A DNA stretch of 64,000 nt, taken from contig JANRJM010000008.1 of NCBI GenBank assembly GCA_033763975.1, positions 1 to 64,000 on the forward strand, read 5' to 3'. Shown in pieces: positions 8,426-57,875 of the stretch. How positions within the stretch are numbered: the stretch's first letter is position 1; every line of letters begins with the position of its first letter. A program made the position numbers and the translations under genes. The notes beneath the pieces are model-generated. The model did no database searches and was not told the origin of the DNA. It was given only the letters and a program-made list of their open reading frames with translations. This DNA is from Planctomycetota bacterium (GTDB lineage: Bacteria > Planctomycetota > Phycisphaerae > Phycisphaerales > UBA1924).

Positions 8426-10530
8426 GCGTACACCCCTTCCTCGGCCAGCAGCGACGTGAGCACCTCGACCACGTCGCACTTCACGAAGATGAACCGGTCG
8501 ATGCCCGCGTCGCGGTACGCCGCCTCGTGCCCGCCCGGGTTGCCCGCGAGCACGATCCGCCGGGCGCCCGCCCCGCGCAGCACGGGCGCGAATCGCGGGA
8601 TGGCGTTCTGGTAGGCGTCGTCGGGCCCGCACAGCACCGCGATGTGCGCGCCGCTCTCGACGAACTCGACGCCCGCGGCGTCGGGCGAAACGTCGGGCAC
8701 GCTCTCGCGCACGTCGAACCCGCCCGCCTGGAACAGGTGTCGCGCGTACGTCAGTCGCGCCAAATGACGCGGCGCAGTACCCACCGCGACCAGGAACACG
8801 CGCGGACGCCCGCCGCACTGCTGCGCGTAGCGGTCGCACGCGTCGCGCAGGCGCTCGAAGGCCTCGGCGAACGGGTGCACGTGCACGGGCGTGTGGATCG
8901 CCGCCGGCTTGTCGTCCGCGGGGCGGAGCAGGTCGGCGATCTCGCGGACGGACGCGTTGGCGCGGGCGGCCTGGAGAGCGTCGGCGCAGCGGTCGGACCG
9001 ATCGCCCGACGCGGGCGTGCGCGGGGCGGGCGCGCGCCCCGCGAGCCGCGCCCGGGCGGCGCCCACGATGGCATCACGATCGGACGGCGTGACGGCCGGG
9101 CGTGTCTCGTTCGCCAGCGGGAACTCGCTGACCCCCACCACCACGTCCTTGCGTGTGGCGAGGTTGTGGATGCGGGGCAGCATCGCGCCGTCGATCTGGC
9201 GGGCGACCCAGCCGTCGGCGAGCGCCCGCGCCATCCCGCCCCGCGACTCGATCTCCTGGAGCAGCGCCCAGGCCTTGGCGGCGACCTGGTCGGTCAGATG
9301 CTCGATGTACCACGAGCCGCCGGGAACATCGCACACGCGGTGCAGGTGGCACTCGTCGAGCAGAACGTGGTGCGTGTTGCGCGCCACGCGCCGGGCGAGG
9401 GGCGAGGGATCGCCGATCGCGGCGTCGAAGGGCGTGACGCCGATCGCGTCGGCGCCGGCGAGCCCGGCCGCGACCGCGCACGTGGTCGTGCGCAGGATGT
9501 TCACCCAGGGGTCGCGGGTGGTGAGGACGCGCTTGCTGGGGCGGACGTACATGGTCATGGCGCGGGCCGGGTCAGACCCGCCGCAGGCTTCGACGACGCG
9601 GGCCCAGAGCCGCCGGGCCGCTCGGAGCTTGGCGATCGCGAGGAACAGCCCGCACCCGGTGGCGAAGGAGAACAGCACCTGCCCGGCGGCCTGATCGACG
9701 GTGAGGCCGGCGCGGGTCATCGCCCGCAGGTATTCCAGCGCGGTGCCCATCGAGAACGCGAGGTCCTGCGTGGCGGTCGCCCCGGCGTGGTGGTACGGCG
9801 CGGTGCCGACACGGACGGCGCGGACCAGCGGGAGGCGCTGCACGCTCCAGCGGGCCAGTTCGCCGAGGCGCGACATCCCTTCGTCCAGCGAATAGGGCAG
9901 GTGCCCGTCGCGCGCCAGCACCGCGAGCGGGTCGGCCTGGAGACACCCTCGGGCGACCTCGAACGACACGCCCCGCCGCTCCCACAGGGCCGCGAGCATC
10001 GCGGACGCGGGCGTGAACGCGGCGCCGGCCTCGAGCGAGACGGTGATCATCTCGAGGTGCACGCCCTGCAGCACGCGGTCGAGGTCGTCGACGGTGTACG
10101 CGGCGATGCCGTCGCGGGCGGCGAGGTTTCGCCCGACCGGGTCCGCGGGATCGAGCTGGGCGCGCGCGCACGCGTCGAGGCGCAGCACGAGCGAGGTCGC
10201 GCCGCCCTCGAGTTCGTCCAGGCATGCGCGGTTCGCCGCGAGCGGGTCGGCGTCGGCGACTTCCTGGCGGATGTCCCACCCGTGTCGCGACACGCCGAGC
10301 AGGCGAGCGCCGCGCGTCATGGGCATCAGCCCGCTGTGCCCGGAAGGATCGCCGCCCGGGACGGCGTCGTCGCGCGTGTACAGCGGCTTGATGTCGATGC
10401 CCTCGTACGTGTGCGTGACGAGGCGGCGTTCGAACGGGGCGCCCTGCAGGTCGATCTCCACGAGCGCCCGCCACGACGCCTCGCTGACGCGCGGGAACTG
10501 CTGGGCGGTATCGAGCGTCTTCGGCAGCAT
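8422..10530 (-). CDS. mutA: Methylmalonyl-CoA mutase small (non-catalytic) subunit
   Basis: 702-aa partner of MutB with the same two-domain plan. The start [20 protein letters not shown] is typical of MutA, and the barrel keeps [19 protein letters not shown] and [14 protein letters not shown], but the C-terminal domain has no DxHxxG cobalamin motif. That is normal for this subunit and not damage. The ATG at 10530 has GGAGG about 9 nt upstream and is the first gene of the operon. The 162 nt to the divergent CoA-transferase gene must hold the promoter, although no clear -35/-10 pair was seen there. Confidence 0.93.
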
Positions 10531-15827: not shown

Positions 15828-16349
15828 ATGCACCTTGATTCACCGCTCCGCCTGCTCGGCGAGGCGATCCAGATCATGTACAACGCCGAGGGCCTGCTCG
15901 TGCTCGCCATGCCGCGCGTCGCGGCCCGGGCGCCGGATGAGTCGCTCCGGCGCGCCCTGGCTCAGCACCTCGACGAGACGCGGGCCCAGGCGATCCGCCT
16001 CGAGCAGGCGGCCACGCTGCTGGGGGTTCCGTGCCAGGGGCGCCGGTCGATGGCGATGGAAGGCCTGCTGTCCGACGGCGAACTGAACCTCGGGTACGCG
16101 GGCGACGACACGCTGGTCTCGCTGGCCATCATCGGAACGTGCAGCGCGGTGGAGCACTACGAACTGTCGATGTACGAGTCGATGCTCATGCTCGCGCACA
16201 TGGCGGGCTCGACCGAAGCGGCCGAGCTCTTCAAGGCGACGCTCGGCGAAGAAGAACGCGCACTGCAGTCGCTGCACGAGGCGTCGTCCGGGCTGCAGCA
16301 GCAGCTCCGATCCGGGGCCGCCGCGGGCAACGGTGGAGGCGTGCGGTAG
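15828..16349 (+). CDS. Ferritin-like DUF892/YciE-YciF family protein
   Basis: 173-aa four-helix protein of the YciE/YciF (DUF892) family, start preceded by CGGAGGA. The pattern is usual for the family: a first helix DSPLRLLGEAIQIMYNAEG, a second with HLDETRAQAIRLEQAATLLG, a third SLAIIGTCSAVEHYELSMYE and a last helix KATLGEEERALQSLHEA. The glutamates and histidines spread over the helices could hold a di-iron site. Family members are stress-induced in several bacteria; the molecular function is not settled. It is probably the last gene of the SRPBCC-dehydrogenase operon. Confidence 0.85.
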   Translation: MHLDSPLRLLGEAIQIMYNAEGLLVLAMPRVAARAPDESLRRALAQHLDETRAQAIRLEQAATLLGVPCQGRRSMAMEGLLSDGELNLGYAGDDTLVSLAIIGTCSAVEHYELSMYESMLMLAHMAGSTEAAELFKATLGEEERALQSLHEASSGLQQQLRSGAAAGNGGGVR

Positions 16350-26253: not shown

Positions 26254-26886
26254 ATGGACGCGACCCACACCACGGCGGCCATCCAGGCGTACCTGGATCA
26301 ACTCGCAGCGACCACCGGGAACGATCCCCCGCCCGACGCCGTCGTCCGCGCCCTCATGGCGAGGTCCGTGGAGCGCCTGCACGTGCTGTGCAGCGCCATG
26401 CTCTTTCAGAGTTACGAACGGCTGACCCGACCACCGACCAACCTGCGCCCCGACGAACTGCTCGGCGCGGTGGTGGAACGCCTGCTCAAGGCGATGAAAA
26501 CCGTCCGCCCGGGGAATGTCCGCCAGTTCTTCGCGATCGTCAACCAGCACCTGCGATGGGAGCTGAATGACCTGGCCCGACGCTTGGATGAGCAGACGCG
26601 TGCGCTGCCGATCCGCGAGGACCTCGTCCCGGCGCCCGAGACCTCCGGATCGGTGCTCTCCTTCAAGGCGCTGCGGATGCTCGCCGCGATCGACGCGCTG
26701 CCGGACGAGGAGCGTGAGGTGTTCGAACTCATCCGGATCCAGGGCATGACACACCCGGAGGTCGCGGCGTTGACCGGCGTCTCCACCAAGACGGTGCAGC
26801 GCCGGCTCAACCAGGCGCTCCTCCTGCTCGCCGACGAGCTGGACGACCTGCGCCCGGGCTCGCCCGTTGAACGGCGCACCGTATGA
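26254..26886 (+). CDS. ECF-type RNA polymerase sigma factor (kinase-linked)
   Basis: 210-aa sigma factor. Region 2 lies in the first half (DELLGAVVERLLKAMKTV, RQFFAIVNQHLRWELNDLARR), and region 4 is clear: AIDALPDEEREVFELIRIQG then the helix-turn-helix THPEVAALTGVSTKTVQRRL. No anti-sigma gene follows; instead the stop overlaps the kinase ATG (ATGA, 26883-26886). This is the arrangement known for planctomycete ECF-STK groups, where a serine/threonine kinase is thought to control the sigma factor by phosphorylation. A likely target is the 25-nt motif found at both ends of the locus. Confidence 0.9.
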   Translation: MDATHTTAAIQAYLDQLAATTGNDPPPDAVVRALMARSVERLHVLCSAMLFQSYERLTRPPTNLRPDELLGAVVERLLKAMKTVRPGNVRQFFAIVNQHLRWELNDLARRLDEQTRALPIREDLVPAPETSGSVLSFKALRMLAAIDALPDEEREVFELIRIQGMTHPEVAALTGVSTKTVQRRLNQALLLLADELDDLRPGSPVERRTV

Positions 26887-29171
26887 ACGACGACGAACGC
26901 GTTCGCTCGCTCTTGGCGGCGATGCTGGACTCTGGCCTGCCCGCCGAGCAGGTCTGCGCCGAACACCCGGATCTCCTGCCGATCGTCTCTGGCCGCTGGC
27001 AGCGGATGCAGTCGATCAGCAAGGACCTCGACGCCCTGTTCCCTTCCGGCGGGCGCGCACAGCGCGCCTCGCCGCTCACCGACGCCCCGCGCCTGCCCGG
27101 GTACGAGCAGATCGAGTTCGTCGGTCGCGGCGGCATGGGGGTGGTCTACCGGGCGCTGCACACCGCGCTCCACCGGGTGGTGGCCGTCAAGATGCTCCTG
27201 CCCGGCATGCACGACGCGCCCCACGAGACCGAAGCGCTGCTGCGAGAAGCGTCGGCCGTCGCGGCGATCCAGCACCCCAACATCGTGCAGGTCTTCGACG
27301 TTGCCGCCATCGACGCACGCCCGTACTTCACGATGGAGTTCCTCGAGGGCGGTTCGCTCGCCCAGCGGATGGGCGGGGCCCCGCAGCCGCCGCGCCAGGC
27401 GGCGGAACTCACCGCGCTGCTGGCGACGGCCGTCCAGGTCGCGCACGAGCGTGGCGTCGTGCACCGCGACCTCAAACCCGGCAACATCCTGTTCACGCTG
27501 GACGGCAGCCCGAAGATCGCCGACTTCGGCCTCGCCCGCCTCATGGCCTGTGACCCGTCGGCGACGCTCGGCCAGGCCGGCTTCGGCACGCCGAGCTACA
27601 TGGCGCCCGAACAGGCCCTCGGCGCGCCGGGACGCAACGAACCCGCCGTCGATGTCTACGCCCTGGGCGCGATACTCTACGACCTGCTCACCGGGCGCCC
27701 GCCGTTCCGCGCCGACTCGCCGCTCGAGACCCAGCGCCAGGTGATCGAGCAGGAACCCGCGCCGCCATCCAGGCTCAACGCCCGCGTGCCGCGCGACCTG
27801 GAAACCGTCTGCCTGGCGTGCCTCAGCAAGGACCCCGCGCGCCGCTACGCCAGCGCCGGGGCGCTGGCCGACGACCTGCGCCGGTTTCTCCGGGGCGAGC
27901 CCATCGCCGCGCGGCCTATCGGGCCCGCCGAGAGGCTCCGCAAGTGGGTGCGCCGCCATCCGACCCGCACGGCCGCCTGGCTCGGCGCGATCCTCTGCCT
28001 CACCATGATCTTCAGCGCGGTGCTCTGGACGGCCTCGCAGCGGGCCGCCTTCGAGCGGGCGGTCGCGACGGACTTCACCGAGATCGTTCGTCTGCAGCGC
28101 GCCGGCGACTGGAGCGGCGCGCGGAACATGCTCGAGCGCGCCAAGACCCGCATCGGCTTGGGCTACGGCTCGGACGAGTCGGCGCGCCGCGCCGCGGAGA
28201 TCGCGCGAGAACTCGACTTCGTCGACCGTCTCGCGGCGATGCGGCTCGAGCGGGCCTCGTCGCGCGAGATCGCGTTCGACCGGCGCAAGTGGTGGAACAC
28301 CTACCGCGACGAGTTCCGCAAGGCGGGGCTGCTGGTCGAGGGCGACGATCCCGGAGCCTTCGCCGCACGCGTCGCCTCCTCGAACGCCAGGGTCGCGCTG
28401 ATCGACGCGATGGACGACTGGGCGATCTGCGCTGCCGACAAGGGCGAGGTCCAGTGGCTGCTCATCGCGACGCGGACCGCCGACCCGGATCCCGCCTGGC
28501 GCGACCGCGCCCGCTCCGTCATGACGTGGCAGGATCAGAACCAACTCGAGGCGCTCGCGCGGGAGGCCCGCCTCGAAGACCAGCCCGTGCCGCTCATGCT
28601 CATCGTCGCCGGGCTGCTCATGGAGCAGCGGTCGGAGGAAGGCTTGCCGTTCCTCCGGCGCATCCAGGCGGCCCACCCGTCCGATTTCTGGGCGTGCTTC
28701 GCCCTCGCCGAGTCGCTCGCGCCGACAGACCCGGACGTGATCTCGTTCTACCGGGCGGCCGTCGCGCTGCGGCCTCAGGCCGCCGCGGCGCACGTCAACC
28801 TCGGGAACGCGCTGTCGACGCAGAACCGCGTGCCCGAGGCCATCGAGTGCATGCAGCGGGCCCTGTCGCTCGACGCGCACAACCACGTGGCGCAGTTCAA
28901 CATCGCCATCTGGCTGCTGCAGGAAGAGCGCTACGACGAGTGCGCCGCGCACGCCCGGCAGGCGACCTCCCTAAACCCGTCCGACCCCCTGGGGCACGGC
29001 GTGCTCGGGAGTGCGCTCCTCCAGATCGGCCAGCCGGCCGAAGCGGCCGAGTCGTTCCGACGCGCCATCTCGCTGCTGCCCGAGGGCCACCCGCGCCGCG
29101 CGTCGTTCGAGCGGGCGCTGGAACGCTGCGCGGCGATGCTCGCTCCCCCCGCGCCGGCCCGCGCTCCGTAG
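26883..29171 (+). CDS. Transmembrane serine/threonine protein kinase with C-terminal TPR domain
   Basis: 762-aa Hanks-type kinase. Order: a short N-terminal helical segment; kinase domain about residues 75-337 with GRGGMGVVYRA, VAVKMLLPG, HRDLKPGNI, IADFGLA and SYMAPEQ (all catalytic residues present); one membrane helix about 366-384 (LGAILCLTMIFSAVLWT); an extracytoplasmic helical region; and TPR-like repeats about 560-755 (AHVNLGNALSTQNRVPEAI; AQFNIAIWLLQEERYDEC; GHGVLGSALLQIGQPAEAA). The TPR part would face outside and could sense ligands or proteins. It overlaps the sigma gene by 4 nt, so the pair should be made together. Confidence 0.93.
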   Translation: MNDDERVRSLLAAMLDSGLPAEQVCAEHPDLLPIVSGRWQRMQSISKDLDALFPSGGRAQRASPLTDAPRLPGYEQIEFVGRGGMGVVYRALHTALHRVVAVKMLLPGMHDAPHETEALLREASAVAAIQHPNIVQVFDVAAIDARPYFTMEFLEGGSLAQRMGGAPQPPRQAAELTALLATAVQVAHERGVVHRDLKPGNILFTLDGSPKIADFGLARLMACDPSATLGQAGFGTPSYMAPEQALGAPGRNEPAVDVYALGAILYDLLTGRPPFRADSPLETQRQVIEQEPAPPSRLNARVPRDLETVCLACLSKDPARRYASAGALADDLRRFLRGEPIAARPIGPAERLRKWVRRHPTRTAAWLGAILCLTMIFSAVLWTASQRAAFERAVATDFTEIVRLQRAGDWSGARNMLERAKTRIGLGYGSDESARRAAEIARELDFVDRLAAMRLERASSREIAFDRRKWWNTYRDEFRKAGLLVEGDDPGAFAARVASSNARVALIDAMDDWAICAADKGEVQWLLIATRTADPDPAWRDRARSVMTWQDQNQLEALAREARLEDQPVPLMLIVAGLLMEQRSEEGLPFLRRIQAAHPSDFWACFALAESLAPTDPDVISFYRAAVALRPQAAAAHVNLGNALSTQNRVPEAIECMQRALSLDAHNHVAQFNIAIWLLQEERYDECAAHARQATSLNPSDPLGHGVLGSALLQIGQPAEAAESFRRAISLLPEGHPRRASFERALERCAAMLAPPAPARAP

Positions 29172-43012: not shown

Positions 43013-44905
43013 ATGAAGAAGACGGTCATGGGTCTGCTCGCACTCGTCTGTTGCGCCGGCTCCGCCAGCGCGCAGGTGCTGATCAGCCAGGTCTACGGCG
43101 GCGGCGGCAACACAGGCGCCCCGTTCAACCAGGACTTCGTCGAACTGCGCAACACCGCGTCGGTTCCGGTCACCGTCCCCGCCGGCGGCTGGTCGCTCCA
43201 GTACGCCTCGGCCGGCGGCAACTGGGCCAGCAGCTCGGCCACGCTGCTCGTCATCCCCGCGGGCACCGTGATCCCCGCCAACGGCTTCTTCCTCATCGGT
43301 GGCGCCACGGGCACCGCCGGCTCGCCCCTGCCCACCACGCCCGATCTCAATCCCTCCTCCGCCGGCAGCTTCAACATGAGCGGCACGGCCGGCAAGGTCG
43401 CCCTGGTCTCGATCGCCACCTCGCTGAACGTGAACGACTGCACCCGCCCCGAGATCATCAACTTCGTCACCTGGGGCAACCCCGGCAGCGTGCCCTCCTG
43501 CAACGACGGCTCGTACGCCCTGCTCCCTTCCGGCACCGGCGCCACGACCTCCATCGTCCGCCTCTCCGCGGAGCGCTGCCAGGAGACCGGCAGCGACGCC
43601 GCCGACTTCACGACCGCGGGCGTCGGCTCGGTCCCGATCTACAACTCGCAGTCTCCGGGCATCGCCTGCCCGACCTGCATCGACTGCAACGGCAACCAGG
43701 TCTGCGACAACGTCGAGATCGACGCCGCGGGCGGCTCCGGCGGCGTGGGCGGCACCCTCGACTGCAACTCGGACGGTCTGATCGACTCCTGCCAGATCGC
43801 CGGGAACCCCGCCCTCGACTGCGACGTCAATGGCACGCTCGACGCCTGCCAGATCGCCGCCAATCCCGCGCTCGACTGCGACAGCAGCGGCACGCTCGAC
43901 TCCTGCCAGATCGCCAGCACCCCCTACCTCGATTCCTGCAACAGCAACGGGCTGCTCGACTCCTGCGAGACCCCCGGCGCCGGCCAGGACTGCAACGCCA
44001 ACAACGTCCTCGACTGCTATGAAATCAAGACCGGCATCGCCACCGACGCCGACTTCAACGGCACGATCGATCAGTGCGAGGGCGGCTTCGCCCTCGAGAC
44101 CATCGAGAACGCCACCGTGCAGCCCACCGGCATCCGCGGCGGAGGCAACGGCAACAACTTCTGGAACATCGAGGGCTCGGGCCTGGGCAACTTCGCCTCG
44201 TACGGCGCCGTTCGCTTCGACCTCGCCCCGCTCTTCGCGCAGCTCGACGCCGCCTTCCCGGGCGGCTGGACCGTCAACCGCGTGTACTTCTACCTCCAGC
44301 AGGCCAACGCCGCCTTCACGTTCTCCAGCCTGAACGACTCGATGCAGCTCTACTACACCGACCTCGACGCGCTCGACATCACGGTGCAGAGCTCCGTCAA
44401 CCCCGCCCGCCTGTACGCCAACTTCGAGACCGACTGGACCGACCGTGACCTCGTCACGAACTACACCTTCACCCAGGACATCGGCACCGGCCCGGACGGC
44501 ATCGGCTCGGGCAAGATCGAGTCGTACCTCATGTTCAACAGCACCGCCATGAACAACAGCGCCATGCTCGCGGTCGGCGCCGAGGCCAACCAGGGCGACA
44601 CCACCCTGACCCTCCTGGTCAACACCAACGACGCCATCGCCGCCGCCACCTACGCCGGCCGCACCAACAACACCTGGCGCGGGCCCTCGCTCGTCGTCTT
44701 CGCCGAGTCGACCGGCGCGCCCTGCGACCCCGACTTCAACCAGGACGGCAACTCCGACCAGGACGACATCGCCTGCCTCGCGCAGGTCGTCGCGGGTGAT
44801 CCCACCTGCTCCTCGGTCGACCCCGACTTCAACCGCGACGGCAACGTCGATCAGGACGACATCGCGGCCCTCGAGCAGGTCGTCGCCGGCGCGCCCTGCC
44901 CGTAA
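43013..44905 (+). CDS. Secreted lamin-tail-domain protein with Cys/Asp repeats and GC-type dockerin module
   Basis: 630-aa exported protein; ATG 43013 with GAGAGG upstream. Signal peptide 1-21 (MGLLALVCCAGSASA). Residues ~22-210 form a lamin-tail-like beta domain (VLISQVYGGGGNTGAPFNQD, FVELRNTASVPV, GWSLQY). About 225-360 contain six or so calcium-loop-like repeats of about 22 residues with D-C-N/D-x-x-G-x-x-D-x-C and the spacer QIAxNPALD. About 365-560 is a further beta domain. The end is a dockerin-like pair, DPDFNQDGNSDQDD and DPDFNRDGNVDQDD, closing in GAPCP. Such modules are thought to mediate calcium-dependent protein attachment on the cell surface. The binding partner is not visible. 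A perfect terminator follows. Confidence 0.88.
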   Translation: MKKTVMGLLALVCCAGSASAQVLISQVYGGGGNTGAPFNQDFVELRNTASVPVTVPAGGWSLQYASAGGNWASSSATLLVIPAGTVIPANGFFLIGGATGTAGSPLPTTPDLNPSSAGSFNMSGTAGKVALVSIATSLNVNDCTRPEIINFVTWGNPGSVPSCNDGSYALLPSGTGATTSIVRLSAERCQETGSDAADFTTAGVGSVPIYNSQSPGIACPTCIDCNGNQVCDNVEIDAAGGSGGVGGTLDCNSDGLIDSCQIAGNPALDCDVNGTLDACQIAANPALDCDSSGTLDSCQIASTPYLDSCNSNGLLDSCETPGAGQDCNANNVLDCYEIKTGIATDADFNGTIDQCEGGFALETIENATVQPTGIRGGGNGNNFWNIEGSGLGNFASYGAVRFDLAPLFAQLDAAFPGGWTVNRVYFYLQQANAAFTFSSLNDSMQLYYTDLDALDITVQSSVNPARLYANFETDWTDRDLVTNYTFTQDIGTGPDGIGSGKIESYLMFNSTAMNNSAMLAVGAEANQGDTTLTLLVNTNDAIAAATYAGRTNNTWRGPSLVVFAESTGAPCDPDFNQDGNSDQDDIACLAQVVAGDPTCSSVDPDFNRDGNVDQDDIAALEQVVAGAPCP

Positions 44906-56097: not shown

Positions 56098-56304
56098 GGC
56101 CATTTTCCCTTCAGACGGAACGGGCATCCGGATCTGGAATGACGATCGGGTGACGCTCGTACAAACTAGGCCCGCAAAGCCGGAGCCGCAGAGTCCTCAC
56201 GGCATCTTCATCCGAAATCGGTAGGGACGGAATGAGATTCTCGGTGCGAGCGACCGCCGATAGTGGTAGAGTCCGATTCCACGCCGAACCCTGAGGAGAC
56301 GTCC

Positions 56305-56349
56305 ATGCCGCTCGCCGCTCGCCGCTCGCCGCTCGCCGCTCGCCGCTGA
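56305..56349 (+). promoter_or_regulatory. RBS and ATG of a short leader frame that would become the metalloprotease start after repeat change
   Basis: TGAGGAG at 56292-56298 lies 6 nt before ATG 56305. In the present sequence this frame encodes 14 residues (MPLAARRSPLAARR) and stops at TGA 56347. Adding one 7-nt repeat unit, or removing two, would run it in frame into the metalloprotease gene with no stop in between. Confidence 0.6.
56311..56345 (+). repeat. Heptanucleotide tandem repeat (CTCGCCG x5)
   Basis: Five exact copies of CTCGCCG, with GCCG before and CT after, about 5.9 units in total. It sits between a good ribosome-binding site/ATG and the open frame of the metalloprotease gene, where a change of one unit shifts the frame. 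Confidence 0.9.
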
Positions 56350-56372
56350 CGCTTAGCGCAGGGCACCTGCAC

Positions 56373-57875
56373 ATGCTCCTCGCAGCCCTCATGTTCTGGT
56401 GGATCGCCGTCGTGCCACCTCCGGCGAGTGCGCAATGGACCCTGACCTACGTTGTCGGTGAACAGAACGCGACGGCCGCCCTGGGACGGGATCGCGTCAT
56501 GCCGATGCGAATGTCGCTGGATCGGGCGCGACTTAAGCTGGAGTCGATCCTTTCGGGAAGCACCGGCAACGCTCGATTCGTGGTGCTCTGGGAGAATCCT
56601 TCGAGCCCGACCGCAGTTGCGAACGCGACTGTGTCCATGTTCCACACGGCTACTGTTGCGATCGCCAAAGACAAGCTCACGAACCAGGCGACGGCCGACA
56701 ATGAACCCGCGAGCGAGGTGCTGTTGTACGAATCGCTACCCGCGAGCAGCATTCCGTTTCGCTTCGATACCGCCACCACGCTATTTGCCACGCAAGTGGC
56801 CATTCCAAATGCCCTCAATAAGCATCTCGCCTTCCAGCCCACGACCGAACAGACAGACGGCACCATCCGGTTCCGTCCGCCTTCGCCGACACTCAAGTGG
56901 CAGTTCTGGCCAAAACGAGACGGCCCCGTTCTCCCTGAATACGAGCTTTTCGAGGCGGTGGCAATTCATGAGTCGCTCCACCTGCTGGGCTTCGACTCGG
57001 TCGCGGAGGCGAGCACCACGCCGAGCACGCTGGACTCGTGGGATTTGTTCCGGTTTGCCGACACCAGTGTCCCGATCGACGCGATAGAGTTCGAGACGCT
57101 GCCCCGCGAGCTGCGGCCGACTGTCGACGCCACGGCGATCACCCTGCTCGGGAGCACGACGAAGGCGTACAAGCTGTCGCGCGGGAGACGAACCGGCGGG
57201 GACGGGTTTCAGGCAGCTCACTGGCGAAGCCTAAGTCTCCTCACTCCGCCGACCGCGATCGGTGTTATGGACCCGGGTGGTAGCTTTCCCATGTACTCGT
57301 CACTGGGCAAACGTTTGTACACTCGTGCGGATGTCGAGGCGCTAGATGTCATGGGATGGAACGTGAACCCAGACGCTGTCCAATACACGGCGGCAGATCC
57401 CGTGAATCTCGTCGCGCCCGCGGCGACCGCACAGTTCACGACCGGCGAAGCGATTACATTCTCATGGCAACCAGGACCGTTCAACGACTGGAGCGTGTTC
57501 ATCACCCGGGTCGAGGAGATTGGCAACGACAACCCGATCAAAGTCTTTTACCAACTCCCGCCGGAGACGACGTCCGTCATTCTTGAGGCGGCCGAATCGC
57601 TCCCGCCCGGCGAGTATGTCTGGTCCGTTGTCGGCGCTACGGCGGCGGGATATGCGGACTCGGAGGATCGGAGCCTGACAATCCTCCCCGCGTGCGACCC
57701 CGACATCAACTGCGACGGAAACATCGATCAGGACGATATTGTCTGCATCGTCAGCGCCGTCGGGGGCGACCCGACCTGCGCCTGCGGCGATCCGGACTTC
57801 AACCAGGATGGCAATCTCGATCAGGAGGACGTCGCCCGCCTCACGGAAGTCGTCGCCGGCGGCCCGTGTCCGTAA
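56373..57875 (+). CDS. Secreted zinc metalloprotease-like protein with GC-type dockerin module
   Basis: 500 residues from ATG 56373. A hydrophobic N-terminus (LLAALMFWWIAVVPPPASA) acts as signal peptide. The zinc site is HESLHLLGFDS (His199-Glu200, His203), a metzincin-like HExxHxxGxD, followed by a probable Met-turn GVMDPGG (about Met299). Residues ~365-430 look like an Ig/fibronectin-type domain (ITFSWQPGPFNDWSVFITRV). The end has two loops, DPDINCDGNIDQDD and DPDFNQDGNLDQED, closing GGPCP. Third positions carry more A/T than in neighbouring genes. ATG 56373 has only a weak AGGG upstream; the better RBS belongs to ATG 56305, out of frame by one repeat unit (see findings). The open frame continues upstream through the repeat to 56295 without a start codon. 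Confidence 0.87.
   Translation: MLLAALMFWWIAVVPPPASAQWTLTYVVGEQNATAALGRDRVMPMRMSLDRARLKLESILSGSTGNARFVVLWENPSSPTAVANATVSMFHTATVAIAKDKLTNQATADNEPASEVLLYESLPASSIPFRFDTATTLFATQVAIPNALNKHLAFQPTTEQTDGTIRFRPPSPTLKWQFWPKRDGPVLPEYELFEAVAIHESLHLLGFDSVAEASTTPSTLDSWDLFRFADTSVPIDAIEFETLPRELRPTVDATAITLLGSTTKAYKLSRGRRTGGDGFQAAHWRSLSLLTPPTAIGVMDPGGSFPMYSSLGKRLYTRADVEALDVMGWNVNPDAVQYTAADPVNLVAPAATAQFTTGEAITFSWQPGPFNDWSVFITRVEEIGNDNPIKVFYQLPPETTSVILEAAESLPPGEYVWSVVGATAAGYADSEDRSLTILPACDPDINCDGNIDQDDIVCIVSAVGGDPTCACGDPDFNQDGNLDQEDVARLTEVVAGGPCP

Follow-up and report, generated by a model that had tools for sequence, protein, structure and literature searches.

Most known cases of phase variation driven by repeats come from host-adapted pathogens, and a conserved case in the Phycisphaerales would extend the phenomenon to the planctomycetes. 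The closest described mechanism is that of neuO of Escherichia coli K1, a cargo gene of phage CUS-3, in which AAGACTC copies divisible by three give the full-length protein, copy numbers in genomes run from 3 to 53 (commonest 20) and 42 of 64 genomes (65.6%) are out of frame (PMC13001214). In Haemophilus, Neisseria, Campylobacter and others, contingency loci have a simple-sequence repeat, with a unit not divisible by three, near the beginning of a gene for an exposed protein (PMC11868660, PMC2651432), and heptanucleotide arrays make up common long repeats of cyanobacteria, Beggiatoaceae (TAACTGA; PMC4679880) and Xanthomonas/Nostoc (GGGAATC type; PMC4692102), most of them between genes. Here we analyzed 64,000 nucleotides of an uncultured planctomycete (contig JANRJM010000008.1, positions 1 to 64,000; the window), in which a heptanucleotide array adjoins the start codon of a putative secreted metalloprotease gene. 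This array is probably a slipped-strand translational phase-variation (contingency) switch, whose position would be conserved and whose repeat sequence would have been replaced between species.

Tandem Repeats Finder (TRF) gave a period of 7, 5.9 copies and 100% match for this array, the sole period-7 array reported in the window, and the five exact CTCGCCG units (56311-56345) pointed out in an earlier note on this DNA are part of this slightly longer perfect array (Table 1). The start region reads CCCTGAGGAGACGTCC ATG CCGCTCGCCG..., with the GCCGCTC array behind, and direct reading agreed with the earlier note on the Shine-Dalgarno (SD) sequence and ATG ahead of the repeat and on the TGA that ends the frame of this ATG. 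The protease frame opens after TGA 56292 and, as had been described, is open from 56295 with no ATG, GTG or TTG before ATG 56373, whose ribosome binding site had rightly been called poor (duplex energies in Table 1). When repeat units were added or removed by simulation, one unit more or two units fewer placed the upstream ATG in frame, as had been expected, with protease products of 525 and 518 amino acids (aa), and at the tested out-of-frame copy numbers a stop was reached within 21 codons. By inspection, the restored product would begin with a plausible signal peptide, MPLAARRSPLTLSAGHLHMLLAALMFWWIAVVPPPASA/Q....

Table 1. Features of the protease start region and of the protease gene in the window
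Feature	Position	Strand	Basis or remark
Shine-Dalgarno GAGGAG for the upstream start	56293..56298	+	Read directly; duplex with anti-SD -8.6 kcal/mol
Start codon ATG adjoining the array	56305..56307	+	The perfect period begins with its G; SD and ATG precede the array in 6/6 orthologues
Heptanucleotide tandem array GCCGCTC (CTCGCCG) x5.86, perfect, 41 nt	56307..56347	+	TRF
Present out-of-frame open reading frame MPLAARRSPLAARR-stop, from ATG 56305 to TGA 56347	56305..56349	+	
In-frame ATG beyond the array, SD weak; might serve for low-level initiation or for reinitiation	56373..56375	+	-3.1 kcal/mol
Metalloprotease open reading frame, 500 aa from ATG 56373; 525 aa from the upstream ATG if one unit is added	56373..57875	+	NCBIfam NF038122 match
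Signal-peptide hydrophobic core and probable cleavage region, MLLAALMFWWIAVVPPPASA/Q	56373..56432	+	By inspection
HExxHxLGFxS zinc-protease motif	56967..56999	+	H, E, H, G and S invariant across six orthologues
C-terminal dockerin-like repeat region	57702..57845	+	Dockerin_1 E=0.14, weak, under the Pfam cut-off

A three-row profile was searched against 163 genomes of the family and six strong protease matches were obtained, in the window's own genome (G000), Phycisphaerae bacterium HBSAPP03 (G004), Phycisphaerales D1_Bin_30 (G003), Phycisphaerales SJ514 (G085), G098 and G182, with proteins 33-58% identical to the window protein; sampling the order (400 genomes) and the class (397 genomes) gave only weaker matches or none, and no further orthologue. 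The arrays, their frames, the SD sequences, the intact downstream open reading frames (ORFs), the kept position with a changed unit and the mixed frames between species were all directly seen. Indeed, each of the six orthologues has a perfect array of period 7 (four) or period 8 (two) starting 0-16 nt from an SD-preceded ATG, no two of them share a unit, and neither period is divisible by three. The array is in frame in G004 (TCCGTCG x5.7), G003 (CGACTCT x4.3) and G182 (CCAGCAGC x7.8, period 8), and out of frame in G000 (CTCGCCG x5.9), G098 (ACGGCTC x5.6) and G085 (CCGCAGCC x3.9, period 8), where a change of a single unit (+1, -1 and -1, respectively) restored a product of more than 500 aa in simulation. 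The downstream ORF is intact in every orthologue, out-of-frame alleles included, and codon position 3 is the most changed between orthologues, also between the out-of-frame alleles G000, G098 and G085, an excess that resembles the pattern of constrained genes.

The heptamer units are separated by minimum Hamming distances of 2-4, no closer than random GC-rich heptamers. The octamers of G085 and G182 share GCAGCCCN and are one base apart, and among the 163 genomes an ATG closely followed by a run of the GCAGCCCN octamer was found only at these two orthologues. In G182 a second and different octamer sub-array, CCAGCCCA x2.9, adjoins the first, which looks like unit replacement in progress. The plausible signal peptide of the in-frame window product agrees with the proposal of the earlier note. 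The basic, Arg-rich leader proposed there is not conserved, the leaders of G182 and G085 being Pro/Gln/Ala/Ser-rich, and an Arg-rich leader as the selected feature is rejected. The conserved feature is the position of the array, not the composition of the leader nor the sequence of the unit. Neither a uniform five units in the relatives nor a homologue without the repeat, two of the findings that the earlier note had set against its own proposal, was encountered among the six orthologues.

Position-conserved arrays with different units point to a conserved on/off switch that would act through gain and loss of repeat copies, and the on/off reading first suggested for the window is supported by arrays in all six orthologues, which vary in unit and copy number and are in frame in three of these and out of frame in the other three. 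We propose that translation would begin at ATG 56305 behind the strong SD and pass through the array, which would encode the n-region of the signal peptide, and that slipped-strand mispairing would add or remove a 7-nt unit and thereby shift the frame of all that follows. The full-length exported NF038122-type metalloprotease would then come from one of the three copy-number classes, and the other two would stop within a few codons; the assembled 5.9-unit allele, being out of frame, would be off, or low with ATG 56373 in use. Selection would keep at the start an unstable array with a unit length not divisible by three, and its sequence would be free, so that units, and even the period, could be replaced between species. 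From these features we infer slippage as the process, with switching that would be reversible within populations, protein that would be absent out of frame, and a benefit of switching.

Compared with neuO, the window locus shares a full-length product, here a predicted one, in one copy-number class of three and common out-of-frame genotypes, whereas neuO encodes a capsule O-acetyltransferase and is described with one repeat unit, and the window locus concerns the signal-peptide n-region of a protease and has few copies; moreover, the unit at the protease locus changes with every species and comes in both 7 and 8 nt. Identity with neuO is ruled out, the window gene being of NF038122 metalloprotease type with the unit CTCGCCG instead of AAGACTC. 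The loci of Haemophilus, Neisseria and Campylobacter type belong to host-associated pathogens, whereas here the bacteria are uncultured Phycisphaerales, the units are long and GC-rich, and the unit is unconserved between orthologues. With the repeats of cyanobacteria, Beggiatoaceae and Xanthomonas, both the start array and the intergenic arrays of the family have heptanucleotide tandem arrays in common, but those repeats place one or a few units at many, mostly intergenic sites, while the window array is a single-site unit in an apparent coding region: a three-unit CTCGCCG run was found in the 3.27-Mb genome of the window only at the protease start. Membership in a dispersed intergenic heptamer family, similar to short tandemly repeated repetitive (STRR) sequences, is therefore ruled out, and copying of the unit from intergenic arrays of the same genome is unsupported. 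In the literature searched, whose coverage was incomplete, we found no description of such a locus in planctomycetes, be it under phase variation or under heptanucleotide or tandem repeats. If the switch is real, secreted proteases may at times be costly or be targeted by phage, grazers or cheaters, the locus would offer a rare view of a contingency locus persisting while its repeat gets replaced, and in metagenome assemblies the start codons of genes of this type will be assigned wrongly by annotation pipelines.

Start arrays were also found at three genes unrelated to the protease. Four-unit CTCGYCG runs occur in five of the 163 genomes, at the protease in G000, at no evident gene start in G132 and G133, and in G004 and G107 directly behind the ATG of exported-protein genes, both out of frame and both restored by the removal of one unit (simulated). 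The gene in G004 (G004:C5, L221:6376-8841, about 26376-28841, minus strand) encodes an 800-aa exported protein of unassigned family, with a TCGTCGC-type x5.4 array behind its ATG and an SD that is weak by duplex score (-3.0 kcal/mol); one unit fewer or two more would give 818 or 825 aa. In G107, of a different genus, the exported-protein gene (G107:C6, L261, about 138667-139655, minus strand) has CTCGTCG x5.1 directly behind its SD and ATG. The third gene, prepilin-like (G004:C12, L056:1487-2524, about 133022-134059; Pfam N_methyl), is in frame, and its leader MPHAARRSPLAAR is encoded by an array with the window's own unit. Thus two of these three exported-protein genes are out of frame, and the arrays behind the ATG of G004:C5 and G107:C6 show that the design is not confined to the protease. 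No array was present in the relatives of G004:C5 (homologues in G000 and G006, paralogues in G004), which indicates that start arrays are also gained or lost in individual lineages and leaves G004:C5 unsupported as a second conserved contingency locus. As in described contingency loci, a perfect array with a unit not divisible by three stands at or inside the coding start, a change of one or two units toggles between full-length and truncated products in the six orthologues and the three other genes (simulated), and natural in-frame and out-of-frame alleles with an intact ORF occur, between species only (3 vs 3). We tentatively suggest, as a somewhat less probable extension, that the whole family might possess a set of phase-variable exported-protein genes, in which 7- and 8-nt arrays would be repeatedly born and replaced behind the start codon, with selection on the presence of a frame-breaking array and not on its sequence.

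To estimate chance occurrence, we counted perfect arrays of at least 28 nt with a period not divisible by three in 2.44 Mb of stretches sampled from family genomes, some of them chosen for holding arrays, and obtained 28, four of which were orthologue arrays; the rate of about 1e-5 per base makes the expectation for any one start codon, over the 30 bases that follow it, about 3e-4. When each sampled genome was Markov-shuffled once, no period-7 array of at least 21 nt resulted. Arrays in all five further orthologues are far outside this chance rate, with the five, owing to common descent, not being independent draws; inheritance of one single array fails as an explanation because units and period differ. 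A neutral microsatellite, for which the n-region would tolerate junk, slippage would grow arrays without benefit and the out-of-frame alleles would be recent losses of function, is the alternative that survives best, and we regard it as unlikely. Intergenic 7- and 8-mer arrays are a general trait of these genomes, and the arrayless paralogues and homologues of G004:C5 fit a start array that arises in one lineage only, but the protease array is present in all six orthologues over deep divergence with its unit replaced each time, some lineages should have lost a neutral frame-breaking array, and the three out-of-frame alleles all retain a stop-free 500-aa ORF.

Several observations count against a switch. 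Shared descent makes the six orthologues not fully independent, the G085 and G182 octamers differ by a single base, and the in-frame share of 3/6, or 4/9 with the other genes, is no different from the 1/3 expected for an irrelevant frame. Intergenic 7- and 8-mers similar to the start arrays are also present in these genomes, which means that array birth itself requires no selection, and G000 and G085 each have an in-frame ATG past the array from which some product could be made. The copy-number differences are those between species, with one genome compared for each. Further, the arrays are short (4-8 units, vs 3-53 in neuO), so that slippage and switching may be slow, and switching could be relevant on the time scale of populations and not on that of colonies.

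By itself, the in-frame share of 3/6 cannot tell a switch from a frame without effect; this distinction comes from the SD energies and from the genes that lack a second start. If the array lay in the 5' untranslated region and translation began beyond it (at ATG 56373 in the window), its length and frame would be irrelevant and mRNA structure or ribosome access might be affected, a reading we consider quite improbable. It is compatible with the 1/3 share and with the in-frame ATG that G000, G085, G004, G003, G182 and G107 have past the array, either ahead of the hydrophobic core or inside it. However, the SD duplex of the upstream ATG is strong in 6/6 orthologues (-7.2 to -12.3 kcal/mol), whereas in-frame starts beyond the array have only -3.1 to +1.9 kcal/mol; the downstream start candidates of G003, G004 and G098 sit within the hydrophobic core, the sole candidate of G098 being a GTG, and in G004:C5 and the prepilin-like gene the array leads to the hydrophobic core with no start codon in between. 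Since G098 and G004:C5 have no usable start beyond the array, the array there is within the coding region. For the window, ATG 56373 could yield some product, and 'off' may therefore mean 'low'.

An assembly or consensus error, with a wrong copy number and a gene truly in frame, has very little probability in our judgment: the named relatives are metagenome assemblies and tandem repeats can be miscounted, but a single short read of usual length can span the 41-nt array, the out-of-frame state recurs in three of the six separate assemblies and in two further genes, and such an error would leave the arrays in all six orthologues unexplained. Programmed ribosomal frameshifting inside the array, which would yield protein from out-of-frame mRNA, is hardly credible, for although a heptamer array encodes the same heptapeptide in all three frames (7 and 3 share no factor) and a frame change would leave the leader unaltered, it has no positive support, no search having been aimed at slippery motifs or stimulatory structures, the units differ between species, and half of the species are in frame without it.

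The window protein scored 91.8 bits (E=7e-26) against NCBIfam NF038122 (metallo_LGF), above the curated cut-off of 80, and by this profile score and its HExxH motif, which reads HESLHLLGFDS in full, it is assigned as a predicted NF038122-type metalloprotease. It resembles that family in the HExxHxLGFxS motif and in score, and differs in that the distant members checked have no array: wider-family members, with matches down to E=1e-41, had no such array in the stretch examined, and L254, a relative from the same genus as G182, carries a normal signal peptide and no array. The array-bearing proteases cluster, 70% of bootstrap trees setting them on one side of a branch, and both frame states and both periods (7 and 8) turn up dispersed across this group. 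A Pfam scan of the protease gave nothing except the weak dockerin match, in a region common to the C-termini of many proteins in this genome, and the AlphaFold model was too weak for use (mean predicted local distance difference test score, pLDDT, 51). The neighbours are a PI-PLC-C1 domain protein upstream (divergent) and a methylmalonyl-CoA mutase downstream (convergent).

The 7- and 8-mer arrays of the family genomes are mostly intergenic, and many-unit ones include CCCAATC. In the window's genome, an intergenic TCGGCAT x12 array has several octamer arrays of different kinds behind it (G000:C14, L088:10540-10826 and 16156-16293), and comparable 7- and 8-mers, in some cases arranged as inverted pairs, lie between genes in other relatives. 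The highest copy number of the octamer arrays sampled was that of TCCGGCGT x14 (G004:C9, L097:5331-5442). In G098, GGGCAAA x3 lies just upstream of a putative lipoprotein start (G098:C3, L202, about 9185-9290), and degenerate TTTGCC(A/C) repeats, which correspond to GGGCAAA in reverse complement, encode the signal peptide of this lipoprotein. In addition, TRF reported in the window a 57-nt tandem repeat x3.3 at 43782-43970, whose unit is a multiple of three and which is likely a coding repeat.
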